This document shows positions 5,007-64,000 of a stretch of 64,000 nt of DNA, one piece after another (positions within the stretch are counted from its first letter, which is position 1; the number at the start of each line of letters is the position of its first letter). The DNA is taken from contig NZ_CP011451.1 of assembly GCF_001007935.1 (NCBI RefSeq), forward strand, positions 1,364,001-1,428,000, written 5' to 3'. A program made the translations under genes and the position numbers. The DNA comes from Nitrosomonas communis (GTDB taxonomy: Bacteria; Pseudomonadota; Gammaproteobacteria; Burkholderiales; Nitrosomonadaceae). Below the pieces are notes generated by a model that saw only the letters and a program-made list of their open reading frames with translations, had not been told where the DNA came from and searched no databases.

Positions 5007-5107
5007 TTCCATTTCTAAATCAAAAATGAGACGAAGGCGAGCCGCAGACAGTATAAATAATACGGCAAGGTGAAGCCGACAATGTCAGTTTTGATTTAGA
5101 AATGGAA
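5007..5107 (+). repeat. MITE-like palindromic repeat, copy 1 (forward)
   Basis: This 101-bp element starts TTCCATTTCTAAATCAAAA and ends with the inverse complement of that sequence. It is flanked by TTA at 5004-5006 and 5108-5110. The interior (GGCGAGCC...GGCAAGGTGAAGCC) is shared with copies at 34720, 40788 and 48720. It lies between the stop of the glycosyltransferase fusion and the convergent ZIP gene. It may also fold into a long hairpin in RNA. Confidence 0.9.
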
Positions 5108-23671: not shown

Positions 23672-23770
23672 TTTCACGCTAAATCAAACTGATTTTGTCG
23701 GATTTACCTTGCCGTATCATTGATACTATCTACGGCTCGCCTTTGCGTCATTTTTGATTTCGAAATGGAA
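23672..23770 (-). repeat. MITE-like palindromic repeat, copy 2 (reverse)
   Basis: The interior TGATTTTGTCGG...CCTTGCCGTATCA...CGGCTCGCC and the right terminus TTTTTGATTTCGAAATGGAA, followed by TTA at 23771-23773, match the family in reverse orientation. The left terminus has diverged (TTTCACGCTAAATCAAA). The element supplies the last codons and stop of the GGDEF-EAL gene. Confidence 0.85.
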
Positions 23771-29351: not shown

Positions 29352-30359
29352 TCAAGCGCAATCGATCACCTGAAAATTATCGGTTAACAAGGAGCGTAGC
29401 GCTTCCTTATAGCAGTTGGAAGCAACAAAGCAATCATCGCAAGCTTGCTTGAACAAGGCAAAAGTTTGATAGTACTTGCCATACAGAATTTCTTTTTTGA
29501 AGAATCGCCAATAGCGCCCAATCAGATTCAGATCGGGTGCATAAGGTGGCAGGAAGATCAATTGGATTTTTAAATCTGACAAGTATTCAGTAACGAGCTG
29601 AGAGTAATAATAGCGGGCATTATCACAGATGACGTATATACGGGCAGCAGCGGGATGTTGTTGCTCGATTTGTTGCAACAACGCTATCGTGGATTGTGCA
29701 TGGATCGTGTCATCATAGCGAATGATTGGGCATAGTCCAGCGCAATCGATAGCGCCATTGAGGTTGATGCATTGTCGACCTGTGTTGCCCGGAATTTGAT
29801 GATCCTGGCCACGTCTGATCCATCCATATCCAGCGATTGGGTTGTGCTGCGGATGCGTGGCGTCCATGAAATAAATCGGATCATCCGGTGCTTTTTTTGC
29901 TTTCAGGGTTTGATAGTATTCAACAAACTCCTTTTGCCGCTCAGCATTGGCTTTGCCTGGAATCAGCCTGGGTTTTTTGTAAAAATAGCCCAATCGATGT
30001 AATAACTGTGTCATGCCACTTTCTCTGTAAGCAACCTGCCACGTCTGCTCCACGTACTGCGCGATTTCTTTAGCGGTGAGATAGAGATTCTCACGCAGAT
30101 GCTGAGTAAGCGCAGCGTCGCTGCCGCCAGCGTCGTTTCTTTGCCAGGCAGCCAATCCGCCTTTACCATATCGCTGGAATTGATTGCGCACCATTTCACG
30201 GTCATTCAACAGGGCGTGTGCAACCTTGGCGGCCGACCACCCTTTACCTAACAGATAAACAACCTTAACCCAACCAGCATAACGCTTATCGGTAGTATGA
30301 CGGTGTTCAAACTCTAACTCAGCGAGTTCTTGATCGGTTAGGCCGTAGCGTGAGGACAT
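29352..30359 (-). mobile_element. IS630-family transposase with altered catalytic residue
   Basis: The 335-residue transposase has an N-terminal helix-turn-helix region and a DDE domain with FMDATHPQHNP (first Asp) and VICDNARYYYS (second Asp). The third block reads LPPYAPDLNLIGRYW, where relatives read NPIERxW or NLIERxW. The catalytic Glu is therefore Gly (GGG for GAG), a single transition, so the copy is probably dead although its frame is intact. Family transposases insert at TA and have terminal inverted repeats; I could not fix the ends here with confidence. It separates the acyltransferase from the rest of the XrtA locus. Confidence 0.88.
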
Positions 30360-34719: not shown

Positions 34720-34820
34720 TTCCATTTCTAAATCAAAAATGACGCCAAGGCGAGCCACAGACAGTATTAATCATACGGCAAGATGAAGCCGACAAAGTTA
34801 GTTTTGATTTAATAATGAAA
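34720..34820 (+). repeat. MITE-like palindromic repeat, copy 3 (forward)
   Basis: This 101-bp element has terminus TTCCATTTCTAAATCAAAA and the characteristic interior. It is flanked by TAA at 34717-34719 and 34821-34823. The right end has drifted (TTTAATAATGAAA). Confidence 0.9.
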
Positions 34821-40787: not shown

Positions 40788-40888
40788 TTCCATTTCTAAA
40801 TCAAGAATGACGCGAAGGCGAGCCACAGCCAGTATCAATGATACGGCAAGGTGAAGCTGACAAAGTCAGTTTTGATTTAGAAATGAAA
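40788..40888 (+). repeat. MITE-like palindromic repeat, copy 4 (forward)
   Basis: This 101-bp element has an intact left terminus TTCCATTTCTAAATC and interior GACGCGAAGGCGAGCC...GGCAAGGTGAAGC. It is followed by TAA; the left flank is CAA, so one flank has mutated. It lies upstream of dapF. Confidence 0.9.
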
Positions 40889-48719: not shown

Positions 48720-48822
48720 TTCCACTTCTAAATCAAAAATGTCGTGAAGGCGAGCCGAAGACAGTATCATAACCATACGGCAAGGTGAAGCCGACAATGC
48801 CAGTTTTGATTTAAAAATGGAA
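48720..48822 (+). repeat. MITE-like palindromic repeat, copy 5 (forward)
   Basis: This 103-bp copy starts TTCCACTTCTAAATCAAAA, has interior GGCGAGCC...GGCAAGGTGAAGCCGACAATGCCAG and ends in AAATGGAA. TAA is present on both sides (48717-48719 and 48823-48825). Confidence 0.9.
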
Positions 48823-48990: not shown

Positions 48991-49091
48991 TTCTATTGCT
49001 AAATCAAAACTGACTTTGTCGGCTTCACCTTGCCGTATGGTTGTGATACTGCCTGCGGCTCGCCTTCGCGTTCATTTGGAAATGGTATACC
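48991..49091 (-). repeat. MITE-like palindromic repeat, copy 6 (reverse)
   Basis: This is a reverse-orientation copy with TTA at 48988-48990, then TTCTATTGCTAAATCAAAA and interior TGACTTTGTCGGCTTCACCTT...CGGCTCGCC. The right end has degenerated (GGAAATGGTATACC), so the boundary is approximate; a TTA follows at 49092-49094. Confidence 0.85.
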
Positions 49092-50815: not shown

Positions 50816-50934
50816 GTTATTCCCAAACTTATTATTTCTATGCAAGCAACTACTCGCATTTAGCTAGTTTTAATCATTAACGCCAATACATTCTCAGGTT
50901 AAATTTCGTTGCTTTGGCTTAGGCAACTGTCTTA

Positions 50935-51034
50935 TCCATTTCCAGATCAAAACTTGCTTTGTCGGCTTTACCATACCGTATGATTGATATTGCTTGCAGC
51001 TCACCTTTGCATCATTTTTGATTTAGAAATGGAA
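50935..51034 (-). repeat. MITE-like palindromic repeat, copy 7 (reverse)
   Basis: This 100-bp reverse copy starts TCCATTTCCAGATCAAAAC (one T lost) and ends TTTGATTTAGAAATGGAA. TTA is at 50932-50934 and 51035-51037. The right TTA is the stop codon of the neighbouring DUF2905 gene. Confidence 0.9.
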
Positions 51035-57099: not shown

Positions 57100-57163
57100 G
57101 TTAAAATGTAATAAAAAGGGCCGGTCTGTAACTGGCGCCTCAATTTTGAAGCACCTCGGATCA

Positions 57164-58022
57164 TTCCGGATGAACCAGAAAACTTGTATTGATCGATCCG
57201 GCTATAGTGATTAATGATGGCATGGGCAAAGTTATCCTGCCAAATTTACAGATATGAATACAGCTCACTTCTCTTAATCATATTAGCCTGAATTATCATG
57301 TGATCATCCCAAGCTTACTCAACTTGTGCACTCAATATCATAACTATTACGCTGATCAGCTCGATTTACCCGTGCATATTCACCTGCATGAAGCTCACGA
57401 TGAAATGATATACAGCCTAAATACCTGTGAACTTTGTCCACTTGCACGTTTATATCAGCATGGTTTGCTTGGCTCCAGGCTGATTGGGGTACATATGATC
57501 CATTTGATCGAAAGTGAAATTAAATTACTCTGACAACAAGATTGTAATAATGCACATTGTCCTTCACCTGATCGCAAGCTAGCGATCGGATTTGCTCTGG
57601 TTAGTGATTTATTAGCACATGGACTCAATGTCTGTATTGGTACAGATGGTTACTCTAAACGGAGCCATTGCATGGGGCTCGATAAAATCATGGATTCCTT
57701 TAGCGATTGGCAAAGCCGCAGATATCAAAAAACCCATCGATTTCTCGAGTCTTACACTCTCTCCTTGCTTTGATCCTATTTCACATCTTGTTTATGTTGC
57801 AGACCACGAACTTGTTATTCGATTTCCAAATCAAAAACGACGCGAAGGCAAAACATAGACAGTAGCAATAATACGGCAAGGTTAAGTCGACAAAGTTAGT
57901 TTTCAAAGTCAGCTTTCATTTACAAATGGAATTACTCGTGTCCGGGTCAATGGCAAACTATTGCTGGATAACAGAGAACTTGCTACTCTGAACGAAAATA
58001 ATCAATCGAGCACAATATATTA
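57164..58022 (+). pseudogene. mtaD: Decayed TRZ/ATZ-family amidohydrolase (MtaD-type deaminase)
   Basis: The stretch before ubiG carries ordered fragments of a 5-methylthioadenosine/S-adenosylhomocysteine deaminase-like protein. They are RIIPDEPENL and AIVINDG at the start; IIPSLLN; ADQLDLPVHIHLHEAHDE...PLARLYQHGLLGSRLIGVHM; then LAHGLNVCIGTDG; MVTLNGAIA; CFDPISHLVYVADHELV; and RVRVNGKLLLDNREL ending with TAA. Frameshifts, stops and a large deletion (the HTHAAM region) make it inactive. A MITE-like element interrupts it at 57818-57931. This gene normally precedes ubiG and gph in betaproteobacteria, which supports the identity. Confidence 0.85.
57818..57931 (+). repeat. MITE-like palindromic repeat, copy 8, inside the mtaD remnant
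   Basis: This 114-bp copy has termini TTCGATTTCCAAATCAAAA and TTTACAAATGGAA and interior GACGCGAAGGC...ATACGGCAAGGTTAAGTCGACAAAG. It is flanked by TTA at 57815-57817 and 57932-57934. Removing the element and one TTA gives CTT GTT ACT CGT GTC CGG, which reads LVTRVR in the frame of the amidohydrolase. Confidence 0.92.
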
Positions 58023-58067
58023 ATGGCAAAAACGCCTCAATAGCAAAAATATAGGGTAGAAAATCTT

Positions 58068-58775
58068 ATGGAAGATGATGGTATCAATGCAGATCCGATC
58101 GAACTGGAAAAATTCAGCCAACTTGCCCATCGTTGGTGGGATCCTAATAGTGAATTTAAACCACTACATGACATTAATCCATTACGGCTTGATTACATCG
58201 ATCAACTAAGTGGAGGGTTGAAGGAAAAAACTGTGGTAGATGTCGGCTGTGGCGGTGGCATATTATCTGAAGCAATGGCTGCACGTGGGGCAAAAACAAC
58301 AGGCATTGATTTGAGTGATAAGGCACTCAAAATTGCTAAACTTCATCTGCTCGAAAGTGGGCAGCAAGTTGATTATCGAAAAATAACGGTTGAGATGCTT
58401 GCTAAAGAACAGCCGCACCATTTTGATATTGTCACTTGCATGGAAATGCTGGAGCATGTACCCGATCCTGCCAGCGTAATAAAAGCATGCGCCCAGCTAA
58501 CTAAACCCAATGGCTGGGTCTTTTTCTCGACCATTAATCGCAACCCGAAATCTTATCTCTTTGCCATTCTCGGGGCAGAATACATCCTTAAATTATTACC
58601 CAAAGGGACTCACGAATACGCTAAATTTATCAAGCCTTCTGAACTTGCGCGTATGGCGCGTGCCGCAGGATTAAATGATGCCAAAATTATTGGTATGACC
58701 TACAATCCTCTTACTAAAGTGTATGCGCTCGAGGCTGATACCAGTGTCAACTATATCATGGCATTTCCAGCTTAA
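58068..58775 (+). CDS. ubiG: Ubiquinone biosynthesis O-methyltransferase
   Basis: UbiG carries out both O-methylations of ubiquinone synthesis. The 235-residue class I methyltransferase has the N-terminal [21 protein letters not shown]-type signature (split here as [13 protein letters not shown] and [13 protein letters not shown]). SAM motif I is [13 protein letters not shown], acidic TTGIDLS follows, and [12 protein letters not shown] and [15 protein letters not shown] are UbiG-specific. It is followed by gph at 10 bp, a conserved betaproteobacterial pair. Confidence 0.96.
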
Positions 58776-59530: not shown

Positions 59531-59892
59531 GGGGGCGATTCGGCTTCGACGTGGGTTGCAAAGCAGTGCAGGGCATACCGAGGATCAGTTACCTCGTAAA
59601 TACATCTGAAAAAAAATAGTCGCAAACGACGAAAATTACGCTTTAGCCGCTTAATCCGGCTGAACTCCACACCGGTGGGCCTCAACGCCGGGTCTGGCAA
59701 CAGACAGTGGAGTCACTAACGAGGATCGTATTTCGCAGGGTTACTTTGCGAAGTACTAAATAATAGGTAACTCGCCTTTCATCAGCCTGCCAGCTGGCGG
59801 GTGACAGGTTAAATCAAATAAACTTGGCTAAGTATGTAGAACTGTCTGTAGAGGGCTTGCGGACGCGGGTTCAATTCCCGCCGCCTCCACCA
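59531..59892 (+). ncRNA. ssrA: Transfer-messenger RNA (tmRNA)
   Basis: This 362-nt one-piece tmRNA rescues stalled ribosomes. The 5' end GGGGGCGATTCGGCTTCGACG and the 3' end with T-arm GGTTCAATTCCCGCC form the tRNA-like domain. The acceptor stem GGGGGCG pairs with CGCCTCC, followed by A and an encoded CCA. The tag frame at 59622-59654 reads ANDENYALAA and a TAA, the form usual in betaproteobacteria. A terminator follows directly. tmRNA genes are frequent island integration sites, and the sequence downstream changes to IS debris and GC-richer DNA. Confidence 0.97.
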
Positions 59893-60742: not shown

Positions 60743-63700
60743 TCACCTTGTAGGTACGCGTACTGGCAGAGCTCCAACCGAGTCGATTTGAGCTCTGGAT
60801 AAATTAACAAGTCTCAAGGCCTCGTCAGGATGAAACCCGGCAGCCCGAAGGGCGTAAAAGGCCTTGATGTCTTCGAAAGCAATGTTCGGAAAGAGAAGCG
60901 TTCCATTGCCTGTAGCCTCAATTTGTAAAGACCCTACGTTTGGTTGGTTTATTGTCTCGCCCCGATACGCCCGGTTTATATTCCGTTGGGCTGTACTTGC
61001 GAGATCATGCTGCGCATTTGTAAAGCTAGGGACACCTTGTTCAATCGTAATTGCGGAATTGTGATTCGGATTTAGTCTTGCTCGACCTGGAGAAAAACTA
61101 GCAGATTGATGAATATGATGCCCAGCGACGTCACTATAAGCTCCGGCGTTAGCGATGGGGCCAGCCGTGAAGCCACCGCTGCCCCCCGGCCCAAGCGCAA
61201 TGGGGCCGCGTGATGGAATCGGATTTAGGTTGCCGCGAATCCTTCCTGCCGGCAGCAAAGGCTGGTTGACGGGCGGCAGTGCCGGTGGGCCAGCCGTGAA
61301 GCCTCCGCTGTCCCCCGGCCCAAGCGCAATGGGGCCGCGTGATGGAATTGGATTGAGGTTGCCGCGAATCCTCCCAGCCGGCAGTAAAGGCTGGTTGACG
61401 GGCGGCAGTGCCGGTGGCACATGTGCCATTGTCACGCCAGGCAGTTGCCCGCCGACGGTTTTAGGACTTATTGCAACGGCTGCCGACTCCGCCTGGGTCC
61501 CTACCGTCACGACCTTGGCGTTCAGCGCCTCACGCGTTATTCCATAACGATAAACCATTGTTCCATCTTCCAAAAGCACTACCGCCGCATTCCTGGCGCG
61601 ATATGCAGCCAACGTCTCTGCCACCGTCGCCGGTCCTACCCGACCGAGCCCCGCGACGCCTCCTCCCGCGAACCCGGCGATAAGCCCCAAGGTCTCGCTG
61701 CCCGTGACGTTGGTCACGACCGTATCGGCGGCGTAACCAACGGCAGCTGACTCCACGAACAGCCATGGATTAGCTACGGCGGAGGCAGTGAGAGCAATGG
61801 CCGCACCCGTACCCACCACCGCGACCGACGACGTTATCCCGAAAGCAGCTATGCCGGTGGTATGACGCAGGTTCCTTTCGATCACGATGGATTGCTCGAG
61901 CCGTTCTTTGGCGAAAGCCCGTTTCACTTGGGCGTCGTGTTCATCGGTGCGCGGTGGAACCTTCAGGCCATAGCGTTTAAAATTCTCGTAGTTGTAGCGC
62001 ACGCGGAATTGCTCAAACGTCGAGACATTAGCAATGCCTTGCTTCGCCCTGTACTGGGCCGGCGATGTAATGTCATGTATTTCGATGATTTCGGGTTTTA
62101 TACCCTCATTGAATTGCGGCAAACAAACATCCTCACCGCCCCCCATGGCGCCGCAGTAGAATTGCTCCGTAAACTCTTCCATCAATACTCCGTCAAGGTT
62201 TCTGGTGATGGTTTTCTGTATGTAGTCTGCAGCGATATCCTCGTAGCCTATTCGTTCGAACTCGGCCCCAACCTCCCAGCCAGACGGCGCAACCTTTACG
62301 TTGCTTTCCGCGACTTTCGGTGCTACTTTGGCTTCATCGAATTTCCGATCCACAGTCTTGGGCGATTCACTCCGCAGCGCATCAAATGCATTCTGGATAA
62401 ACACTTGTCCCAAGCCCATGGCCAGTTGTTGAGAGAGCGCATTCCAGGCGCGCGCGTTTGGGTTCCAGACCCATCCCGTGTTGGGATTGAGCGCCTGCTG
62501 AGCCAGATCCGAGAAAAAACCACCCAACACCGGGGTAGCAGCACCGCCCAAAGTAGCCGTCAACAAGCTCGATTTGAACGGCTCTGGCTTATTCTCGGGG
62601 TGGATGATTTCCTGGATCTTATAGTTGAAGGCATAGGTGGTCGCAGCAGCTCCAGCCTGGGCCAATGACTGCACCCACAGGGGTCCCCGCACAGCAGTGG
62701 CTGCCCCGCTCAGCCCGCCAGCAAGGGCTCCTGTTAGCCCCGCTTCGGCCACCGCTCCTGCATCACTTAATTTATAGTCATCCCATCCCTTCTCGCTTGA
62801 CAAGCTTATATAAAATGACTGGCTGGCGAATCTACCGGCGGCCGCTGCGATCCCCATCCCCAACGGGCCCAGTGTCGACAGCGTCACACCCAGCACCATG
62901 GACGTGGCAATTCCCACGACAGGCGCAAACTGCTGAACGGTTTTTTCCCAGAAGGTCGGTGGGGGAGGCGGCATGGGCGCGCCCACCCATGGCGTGTTGG
63001 AGATAATCGTGTTAGGGTTATAGGGCGAAAACGTGTCGACGTTGTTGTGCAAATTGGTCACGACGTTGGGAATGCGTAGGCTTCGTCCAACCTGTGACTC
63101 CAGCGAATCGGAGGGACCGGTGGTCAAGCCATTGGCGTCAGCGATCAAGTACCACAACTGCTCGTCTCCCAGGAACGCCTTCGCAATGCTAGCCGTGGTA
63201 TCACCGGTGAGGACCGCATAGCTACTGGGCTGTGAACTTGGATAAGTGGAGCTGACAGGCGTGAAGTTGATACCAAAGTTGGCGTGCAAGCCTTTTCTGG
63301 TAAAGCTGCTAGAGGGGACGTTGCCGATCGCCTCTCCGCTCGTGTTGTAGAAGAAGCTGTTGTATTTGTCATCCCGAATTCCCCCATTCGGCCGCATGTC
63401 AATCTTAGCCTTGTCGAGCACGCGACCCGATCCGTCGTAGTCGAAGAAGACCATCTCCGTATTGCCCGGGCCGTCCACCGAACGCTGCCACACCAGGTTG
63501 CCACGCCCGTCATAGATGTTGGTTTTTTGCGTCGGTGTCGATTTCTTGAGGTTGGATTCAACGAGAATAGCTCTTTCCCTCAGCGCCCCTGCCTTGAATA
63601 CATAGCCGTAGGTATAGGTATTCTTGAAACCCTGAACGGGATCAGTTCCCAGCCCATCCCCTTGGGTATAGGTGTAGGATCGCAGTATGCCGTGGTTGTC

Positions 63701-64000
63701 ATAGAGGTTTTTAGTTTCTGAATTTGTGTGCGGTCTCGTGGAATGGGTTGAGGTTTGCTTGTCGAACAGGCCTGCGGCGTTATAGTGATCTTTTACCTTC
63801 ACTAGTGACTGGGGCTCCATCCTCATGTTAAAGGCGCTGACGAAGCGGAAATGGCTATATTGACTACTCTCAGAAAGATTGCCCAACAAATCGTAGCTGC
63901 GCGTTTCCGACGGCATAAAGGGACTCGGACCGGGGTCGGGTGGTATCTCTTCAAGTTTCTCCAAGAACTGTTTGTTGGAGCGCACCCCAGCCTGTTCGAT
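60743..64000 (-). CDS. Rhs/YD-repeat protein with LysM and C-terminal toxin-like region (partial)
   Basis: The frame is open to the window end, so the N-terminus is missing; at least 1085 residues are visible. They begin with YD-type repeats (RSYDLLGNLSE, YDGRGNLVWQRS, FDYDGSGRVLDKA). A LysM-like segment follows (SYAVLTGDTTASIAKAFLGDEQLWYLIADANG, split as two blocks), then a PPPPP linker and a hydrophobic stretch VVGIATSMVLGVTLSTLG. A proline-rich tandem repeat of 43 residues x2 precedes a C-terminal domain with AGHHIHQSASF, reminiscent of HNH/endonuclease-VII-like GHH toxins. By family logic it is a secreted or contact-dependent polymorphic toxin. Base composition is visibly GC-richer than the rest of the window, suggesting transfer. 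No immunity gene follows; IS debris does. Confidence 0.75.
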   Translation of the reverse strand: MEQAGVRSNKQFLEKLEEIPPDPGPSPFMPSETRSYDLLGNLSESSQYSHFRFVSAFNMRMEPQSLVKVKDHYNAAGLFDKQTSTHSTRPHTNSETKNLYDNHGILRSYTYTQGDGLGTDPVQGFKNTYTYGYVFKAGALRERAILVESNLKKSTPTQKTNIYDGRGNLVWQRSVDGPGNTEMVFFDYDGSGRVLDKAKIDMRPNGGIRDDKYNSFFYNTSGEAIGNVPSSSFTRKGLHANFGINFTPVSSTYPSSQPSSYAVLTGDTTASIAKAFLGDEQLWYLIADANGLTTGPSDSLESQVGRSLRIPNVVTNLHNNVDTFSPYNPNTIISNTPWVGAPMPPPPPTFWEKTVQQFAPVVGIATSMVLGVTLSTLGPLGMGIAAAAGRFASQSFYISLSSEKGWDDYKLSDAGAVAEAGLTGALAGGLSGAATAVRGPLWVQSLAQAGAAATTYAFNYKIQEIIHPENKPEPFKSSLLTATLGGAATPVLGGFFSDLAQQALNPNTGWVWNPNARAWNALSQQLAMGLGQVFIQNAFDALRSESPKTVDRKFDEAKVAPKVAESNVKVAPSGWEVGAEFERIGYEDIAADYIQKTITRNLDGVLMEEFTEQFYCGAMGGGEDVCLPQFNEGIKPEIIEIHDITSPAQYRAKQGIANVSTFEQFRVRYNYENFKRYGLKVPPRTDEHDAQVKRAFAKERLEQSIVIERNLRHTTGIAAFGITSSVAVVGTGAAIALTASAVANPWLFVESAAVGYAADTVVTNVTGSETLGLIAGFAGGGVAGLGRVGPATVAETLAAYRARNAAVVLLEDGTMVYRYGITREALNAKVVTVGTQAESAAVAISPKTVGGQLPGVTMAHVPPALPPVNQPLLPAGRIRGNLNPIPSRGPIALGPGDSGGFTAGPPALPPVNQPLLPAGRIRGNLNPIPSRGPIALGPGGSGGFTAGPIANAGAYSDVAGHHIHQSASFSPGRARLNPNHNSAITIEQGVPSFTNAQHDLASTAQRNINRAYRGETINQPNVGSLQIEATGNGTLLFPNIAFEDIKAFYALRAAGFHPDEALRLVNLSRAQIDSVGALPVRVPTR
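61158..61415 (-). repeat. 129-bp tandem duplication inside the Rhs-like gene
   Basis: Two units (61158-61286 and 61287-61415) differ at only a few positions. Each encodes the 43-residue block PPVNQPLLPAGRIRGNLNPI followed by PSRGPIALGPGxSGGFTAGP. The reading frame is kept, so the linker before the putative toxin is simply lengthened. Confidence 0.92.

Follow-up and report, generated by a model that had tools for sequence, protein, structure and literature searches.

A short mobile element family in Nitrosomonas communis shares 3-bp TNA target duplications with a subgroup of IS630-like elements

Background

Short elements that carry no gene and depend on transposases encoded elsewhere are familiar in bacteria. 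RUP of the pneumococcus and Nezha of cyanobacteria are bacterial MITEs that derive from IS630/Tc1-mariner elements. The Correia elements of Neisseria are palindromic intergenic MITEs of about 100–150 bp in a betaproteobacterium, and duplicate TA. Duplications of 3 bp at TNA are made by IS5 elements of the IS1031 type.

Set beside the general descriptions of RUP and Nezha, the Nitrosomonas element described here is alike in its size (about 100 bp or slightly more), terminal inverted repeats, lack of a gene, many copies and IS630-family ends; it differs in its host and in its target duplication, which is 3-bp TNA rather than TA. With the Correia elements, as generally described, it shares the type (a short palindromic intergenic MITE of a betaproteobacterium), although its duplication is again 3 bp instead of TA and its ends differ from those we know for Correia. 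MITEs as a kind are thus known; what is new is a 3-bp TNA duplication common to this MITE and a subgroup of IS630-like elements.

For the presumed mobiliser, the nearest described systems are IS630 and ISY100, which insert at TA and duplicate 2 bp (PMC2170065). The subgroup resembles them in its DDE_3 and winged-helix domains and in its NF033545 score, but duplicates 3-bp TNA. The Fot elements, of the eukaryotic pogo superfamily within the IS630-Tc1-mariner group, make 3-bp duplications, mostly TAA (341 of 385; PMC7386202), and belong to the same wider group as the presumed mobiliser of the MITE; they are eukaryotic, however, and form a separate clade. Among the papers listed in literature searches, titles and opening lines of abstracts mention neither this MITE in Nitrosomonas nor any 3-bp duplication by an IS630 element.

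An insertion beside ubiG

The window is the whole 64,000-nucleotide stretch analysed, positions 1,364,001–1,428,000 of the 4,067,838-bp, single-contig genome of N. communis. Copy 8 of the element occupies 57818–57931 (+ strand; 114 bp) between two copies of TTA, at 57815–57817 and 57932–57934 (both +). Its ends read TTCGATTTCC...AAATGGAA in the window, with termini TTCGATTTCCAAATCAAAA and TTTCATTTACAAATGGAA. It lies within a decayed TRZ/ATZ-type amidohydrolase gene (57118–58050, +, approximate bounds from alignment with intact 440-aa orthologues), upstream of an intact gene with the putative name ubiG (58068–58775, +; 235 aa) that served as the anchor for orthologous loci.

A preliminary description, made from the letters alone, had placed an element at these ends between two TTA copies; its coordinates and codons hold on re-reading. 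The hydrolase frame reads SHLVYVADHELV upstream and TRVRVNGKLLLDN downstream, and deleting copy 8 with one TTA leaves GAA CTT GTT ACT CGT GTC CGG. The same description had offered this restoration of the frame as direct evidence of insertion. It is true locally, but it is weak proof: 114+3=117 bp is 39 codons, so any removal of 117 bp would keep the frame, and the gene is broken elsewhere. Moreover, 13 of the 117 bp are a duplication missing from the sister genome, G018. That genome shares the insertion in a 101-bp form; relative to an intact hydrolase gene (L003), alignment gives 117 extra bases in the window (114+3) and 104 in G018 (101+3), and the difference of 13 bp is a tandem duplication inside the window copy. 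The proof of insertion is instead the empty site in relatives.

Searching 61 Nitrosomonas genomes with ubiG gave a match in 60, and 30 loci were fetched, including the window's own. When the intact hydrolase of L003 was aligned by tblastn to the 29 other loci, 26 spanned the site of copy 8, and 25 of these 26 were free of any gap; the remaining one is G018 (L002), which carries the insertion. (A tblastn match to the L003 hydrolase was absent from L011, L022, and L026.) Intact genes beside ubiG in related Nitrosomonas had been proposed as the check, and they are continuous where the preliminary description expected continuity. Nucleotide alignment places the same gap opposite copy 8 in the 11 empty relatives aligned there.

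The trinucleotide at the empty sites is a different matter. The preliminary description would have counted an empty site lacking TTA against its reading, and, taken literally, that is what relatives have: TGA in 14, TCA in 8, TAA in 2, and TTA in 0 of 24 sites (24 of the 25; L024 escaped the pattern used). All 24 are TNA, as the GTN AGY codons for Val-Ser dictate. At that point the window lineage has GTT ACT, and a TTA target would require a base change in this lineage before insertion. (The trinucleotide pattern could match uninterrupted genes only; the tblastn alignment repeated the site test free of that bias.)

Four other copies can also be compared with empty sites. Contig C140 of G061 aligns to most of window 31,486–60,163 at 92–95% identity (one piece at 84%), and copies 3, 4, 5, and 7 are absent from it; all four are present in G018. 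Two of the empty sites are exact to the base: GATT-TAA-GAAG for copy 3, and TGTC-TTA-GCG for copy 7. The other two differ from the window flanks by one base: TAA for copy 4 (flanks CAA/TAA), and TAT for copy 5 (flanks TAA/TAA). The comparison covers these four copies; copies 1 and 2 are not covered by the contig, and opposite copy 6 the sequence fails to align.

The element family

Eight copies, including copy 8, are present in the window. Copy 1 (5007–5107, +; 101 bp) is flanked by TTA on both sides; copy 3 (34720–34820, +) and copy 5 (48720–48822, +) by TAA on both sides. Copy 4 lies at 40788–40888 (+). Copy 7 (50934–51034, −) has flanks CTT/TTA, with one T lost, where G018 has TTA/TTA. One end has diverged in copy 2 (23677–23770, −, left bound approximate) and in copy 6 (48991–49087, −). 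A separate repeat in the window, at 61158–61415, is a 129-bp unit in tandem, 95% identical, inside a long ORF (60743–63985, −).

Genome-wide, the 19-bp end TTCCATTTCTAAATCAAAA has 546 matches at no more than three mismatches, 267 of them forward and 279 in reverse orientation; the reversed control has 2. As the ends are not all paired, the copy number is estimated at roughly 300. Structure was studied in the window together with 40 regions picked around good end matches, a non-random sample. These hold 69 end-bearing places, 55 of them with both ends. The commonest length, 101 bp, accounts for 39 of the 55 pairs, and such an element leaves no room for a transposase gene. The 39 copies of this length are on average 85.7% identical among themselves and 91.8% identical to their consensus, whose outer 24 bases pair as terminal inverted repeats at 23 of 24 positions. 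Copy 1 has the long hairpin fold that inverted repeats would lead one to expect (−36.6 kcal/mol, z −9.0). The family tends to stay out of genes: with the element taken out, 3 of 55 junctions fall in an ORF of 150 aa or more, compared with 520 of 1,014 positions drawn at random from these regions.

The sample contains some variants. L034 1514–1583 (70 bp) and L058 1509–1576 (68 bp) are shortened copies, apparently through internal deletion, and the former keeps TAA/TAA. Repeats with similar ends and another interior (for example CTGATAATCCTCTAGCC) occur at L032 1513–1768 (256 bp), at L157 from 410, and at L155 up to 2176; perhaps they are a second MITE family on the same transposase. In addition, a segment of about 3.5 kb, with both a MITE and an insertion sequence in it, occurs twice in the genome, at about 9 kb and at about 4,048 kb (L031/L056; L115/L119).

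Both sides of the element commonly carry the same three bases. An exact 3-bp flanking repeat is present in 33 of the 55 full copies (TAA 18; TTA 12; GAA, TGA, and AAA one each), and in 32 of 52 once an atypical 256-bp pair and two rows that lie in duplicated segments are left out; no copy of the 55 has a 4-bp repeat. When right flanks were shuffled among copies, matches averaged 15.3 over 1,000 shuffles and never exceeded 26 in 5,000; the average is high because TNA is preferred. The other 22 of the 55 copies have no exact repeat, and TNA stands on both sides in 39 of 55. The middle base of the trinucleotide agrees directly in 40 of 55 copies and is complementary in 4 of 55, so the trinucleotide represents target that was duplicated, rather than an outward continuation of the palindrome. 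The exact ends and the insertion with target duplication claimed in the preliminary description are thus borne out independently by the empty sites of copies 8, 3, 4, 5, and 7 and by these repeats. Copy 8 is a non-autonomous transposable element, a MITE.

Distribution and age

The MITE was found in 22 of 85 Nitrosomonas genomes. A first look, mostly unscored, gave 403 candidates in G061, 355 in G000, 332 in G018, 139 in G080, and 27 in G011. Within a single region of G011, three copies are 96–99% identical to each other, suggesting that the MITE may have been active more recently there.

Copy 8 was already in place when this lineage split from that of the sister genome G018. For copies 3, 4, 5, and 7 the likelier course is insertion between two splits, the earlier from G061 and the later from G018; exact loss of all four in G061 is less likely.

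A candidate mobiliser

Remnants in two loci (L126 and L137) pointed to an IS630-type element with ends TTCCATTTCTATTTCATAAGTGAA. A 117-aa piece of its transposase was searched in the 85 genomes; it matched in 15, and 30 loci were fetched. Among these, seven places were judged to be full-length IS630-like elements of 1.07–1.14 kb with TTCC-type ends. Six of the seven have equal TWA flanks (TAA at L196, L199, L218, and L197; TTA at L209 and L210), a count that excludes weaker end pairs (L199, L206, L218, L220) set aside by eye; the seventh, L211, has TTA/TGA. Beyond these, three near-identical copies fetched from G020, of five matches there, all have 3-bp duplications (TTA, TAA, TTA); no match to the MITE was found in that genome. 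For an empty site of the IS itself, L210 was compared with G061: the match to the syntenic contig stops precisely at the element's left end, but about 1.1 kb precedes the next matching block, so the comparison gives no clean empty site.

The coding content of these elements is that of the IS630 family. First frames carry HTH domains and second frames DDE_3 (PF13358 in three of three, E 4e-22 to 7e-23), and both elements tested against NF033545, transpos_IS630, exceed the cut-off of 100, at 131.7 and 135.3 bits. The two transposase frames overlap in L196, L197, L200, and L210, suggesting that a frameshift may join them.

Their ends resemble those of the MITE. Compared in register with six Nitrosomonas IS630-like elements, the MITE end matches the four closest at 16–19 of 24 bases and the other two at 13–16. 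Matches of at least 16 of 24 occur at 17 of 60,000 window positions, element copies included, and other IS ends of the host genome match the MITE end at 4–9 of 24. Elements in records from Nitrospirae (L267), Geobacteraceae (L256), and Chlorobiaceae (L291, L294) have an end that matches it at 18 of 20. When one MITE copy was compared with the six Nitrosomonas elements by short-word BLAST, the only match outside the ends was one isolated 11-bp word.

The duplication likewise extends beyond Nitrosomonas. A scan of GTDB contigs gave 80 loci, of which 71 were examined: 49 had both ends, and 22 had no end pair. An exact 3-bp duplication is present in 22 of the 49 (TAA 12, TTA 7, TCA 2, TAT 1), against a 2-bp match in 4 of 49; the 49 pairs include some doubtful ones and some repeats of elements counted before (L271 has the ends and length of L196). 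The exact 3-bp duplication is lacking in 27 of the 49 loci, no flank match at any tested length appears in 17, and TNA stands on both sides in 29. This IS630 subgroup duplicates 3-bp TNA instead of TA, and is therefore a variant, non-canonical member of its family.

The common IS630 of the host genome behaves otherwise. It is TATAGC-ended, and TA flanks all 28 of its end pairs, none of which shows a 3-bp match (the loci L148 and L168, which supply a few of these pairs, overlap). As a mobiliser of the MITE this dominant element was rejected, having different ends and TA duplications. Another IS630-type trace, a DDE_3 match within the window (29463–29879, −), lies in a 338-aa open frame (L171) and gives no alignment longer than 400 bp with the other 29 fetched loci.

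Within the host, the part of the 59 DDE_3 matches that was inspected includes no copy in which ends nearly identical to those of the MITE accompany a transposase that is open. In the host genome, the four IS remnants whose ends come nearest are broken or lack one end; L210, in which both frames are open, matches the MITE ends at 13–15 of 24. Unpaired ends in G011, G038, G053, G021, G017, and G051 were considered as IS ends, and the three loci for which ORFs were listed (L071–L073) show no recognised transposase. Among the matches listed from an end-pattern search of 74 genomes with few or no MITEs, the hits looked like chance.

MITE and IS are found together in 10 of 85 genomes (Fisher p 0.0003), but common descent confounds this association, and it is given no weight as proof. 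Counting against this mobiliser, no IS of the subgroup was detected in 12 of 22 MITE-bearing genomes, and 5 of 15 IS-bearing genomes have no MITE.

A model, and alternatives

Together, the shared ends and the length of the duplication suggest a general model. It is very likely that copy 8 is one of about 300 101-bp MITEs moved in trans by an IS630 subgroup that targets TNA with a 3-nt stagger. A member of the subgroup with the same terminal sequence (5'-TTCCATTTCTAAATCA...) would supply the transposase in trans; the enzyme would cut the MITE out and join it to a TNA target with the 3-nt stagger; and repair of the staggered target would copy TTA onto both sides of copy 8. The elements with ends TTCCATTTCTAAATCA... 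and 3-bp TNA duplications are the likely mobiliser, an assignment drawn, like the cut-and-paste chemistry and the stagger, from sequence comparison. A somewhat less secure proposal concerns history: probably the subgroup (in records from Nitrosomonas, Gallionella, Rhodoferax, Nitrospirae, Geobacteraceae, and Chlorobi) went from a 2-bp stagger at TA to a 3-bp stagger at TNA without losing the IS630 catalytic domains, and a 101-bp derivative multiplied in the lineage of N. communis until it numbered hundreds of copies.

TNA duplications are also the mark of IS1031-type elements, and transposases of the PF01609 class are numerous here (101 matches), so an IS5-type transposase of this kind might move the MITE, its likeness to IS630 ends being convergence. 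This is improbable. Scanning 50 PF01609 loci (30 + 20; about half of the 101 matches) for elements with TTCCATTTCTAAATC ends gave a single good TTCC-type pair, and that pair, at L111, proved to be a MITE holding another insertion sequence with ends of its own; pairs at the same distance elsewhere are weak. The two PF01609 families with many copies have other ends, whereas the IS630 subgroup has both the ends and the duplication. (The nested element, a 1-kb PF01609 insertion sequence at L111 1031–2140, ends in TAACGTGAGTTCGACATAAG.) Least probable of all is that the element is a REP-like or structured-RNA palindrome (for instance a terminator or a processing site) which a REP-type tyrosine transposase has spread, its TTA repeats being incidental. 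The intergenic bias and the strong hairpin of copy 1 would suit such an element, but copy 8 folds no better than its shuffles (z +0.4), and Rfam at gathering thresholds finds only tmRNA in the window (the tmRNA gene itself, RF00023, scores 237 bits at 59531–59892, +). A REP would be expected to lack a target duplication; 3-bp duplications and exact empty sites are both present here, and to our knowledge neither is expected of REPs.

A further question, compatible with movement by an IS630 transposase, is what copy 8 did to its host gene. The intact orthologue, of 440 aa with an Amidohydro_1 domain, matches NCBIfam NF006549 at 683 bits (cut-off 540); the name of that family, TRZ/ATZ family hydrolase, replaces the mtaD of the preliminary description. 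Relative to L003, the window gene has a 395-bp deletion, a 116-bp deletion, six indels of 1–2 bp, and a 3-bp insertion as well as copy 8, and a TGA at 57531–57533 ends its frame. These lesions are mostly common to G018, which is free of that stop. Copy 8 does sit inside the gene, as first described, but with the gene otherwise wrecked it does not follow that the insertion killed it. There is a reasonable case that the gene died first and copy 8 landed in neutral debris: the other lesions are many and mostly shared, the family avoids ORFs, and in G061 the hydrolase remnant is missing together with the site of copy 8 (57,271 is joined to 57,996, with 7 bp between). Against it, neither an intact gene with the insertion nor a broken gene lacking it was seen.

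Implications

For annotation, the amidohydrolase gene beside ubiG is a pseudogene common to the window genome and G018. More broadly, what was an anonymous repeat can now be described as a family of mobile elements whose ends are defined, whose insertions have relative dates, and for which there is a candidate mobiliser. IS630 transposases of bacteria that target 3-bp TNA would also provide a natural contrast to their TA-cutting relatives for asking how the Tc1/mariner fold sets its stagger.
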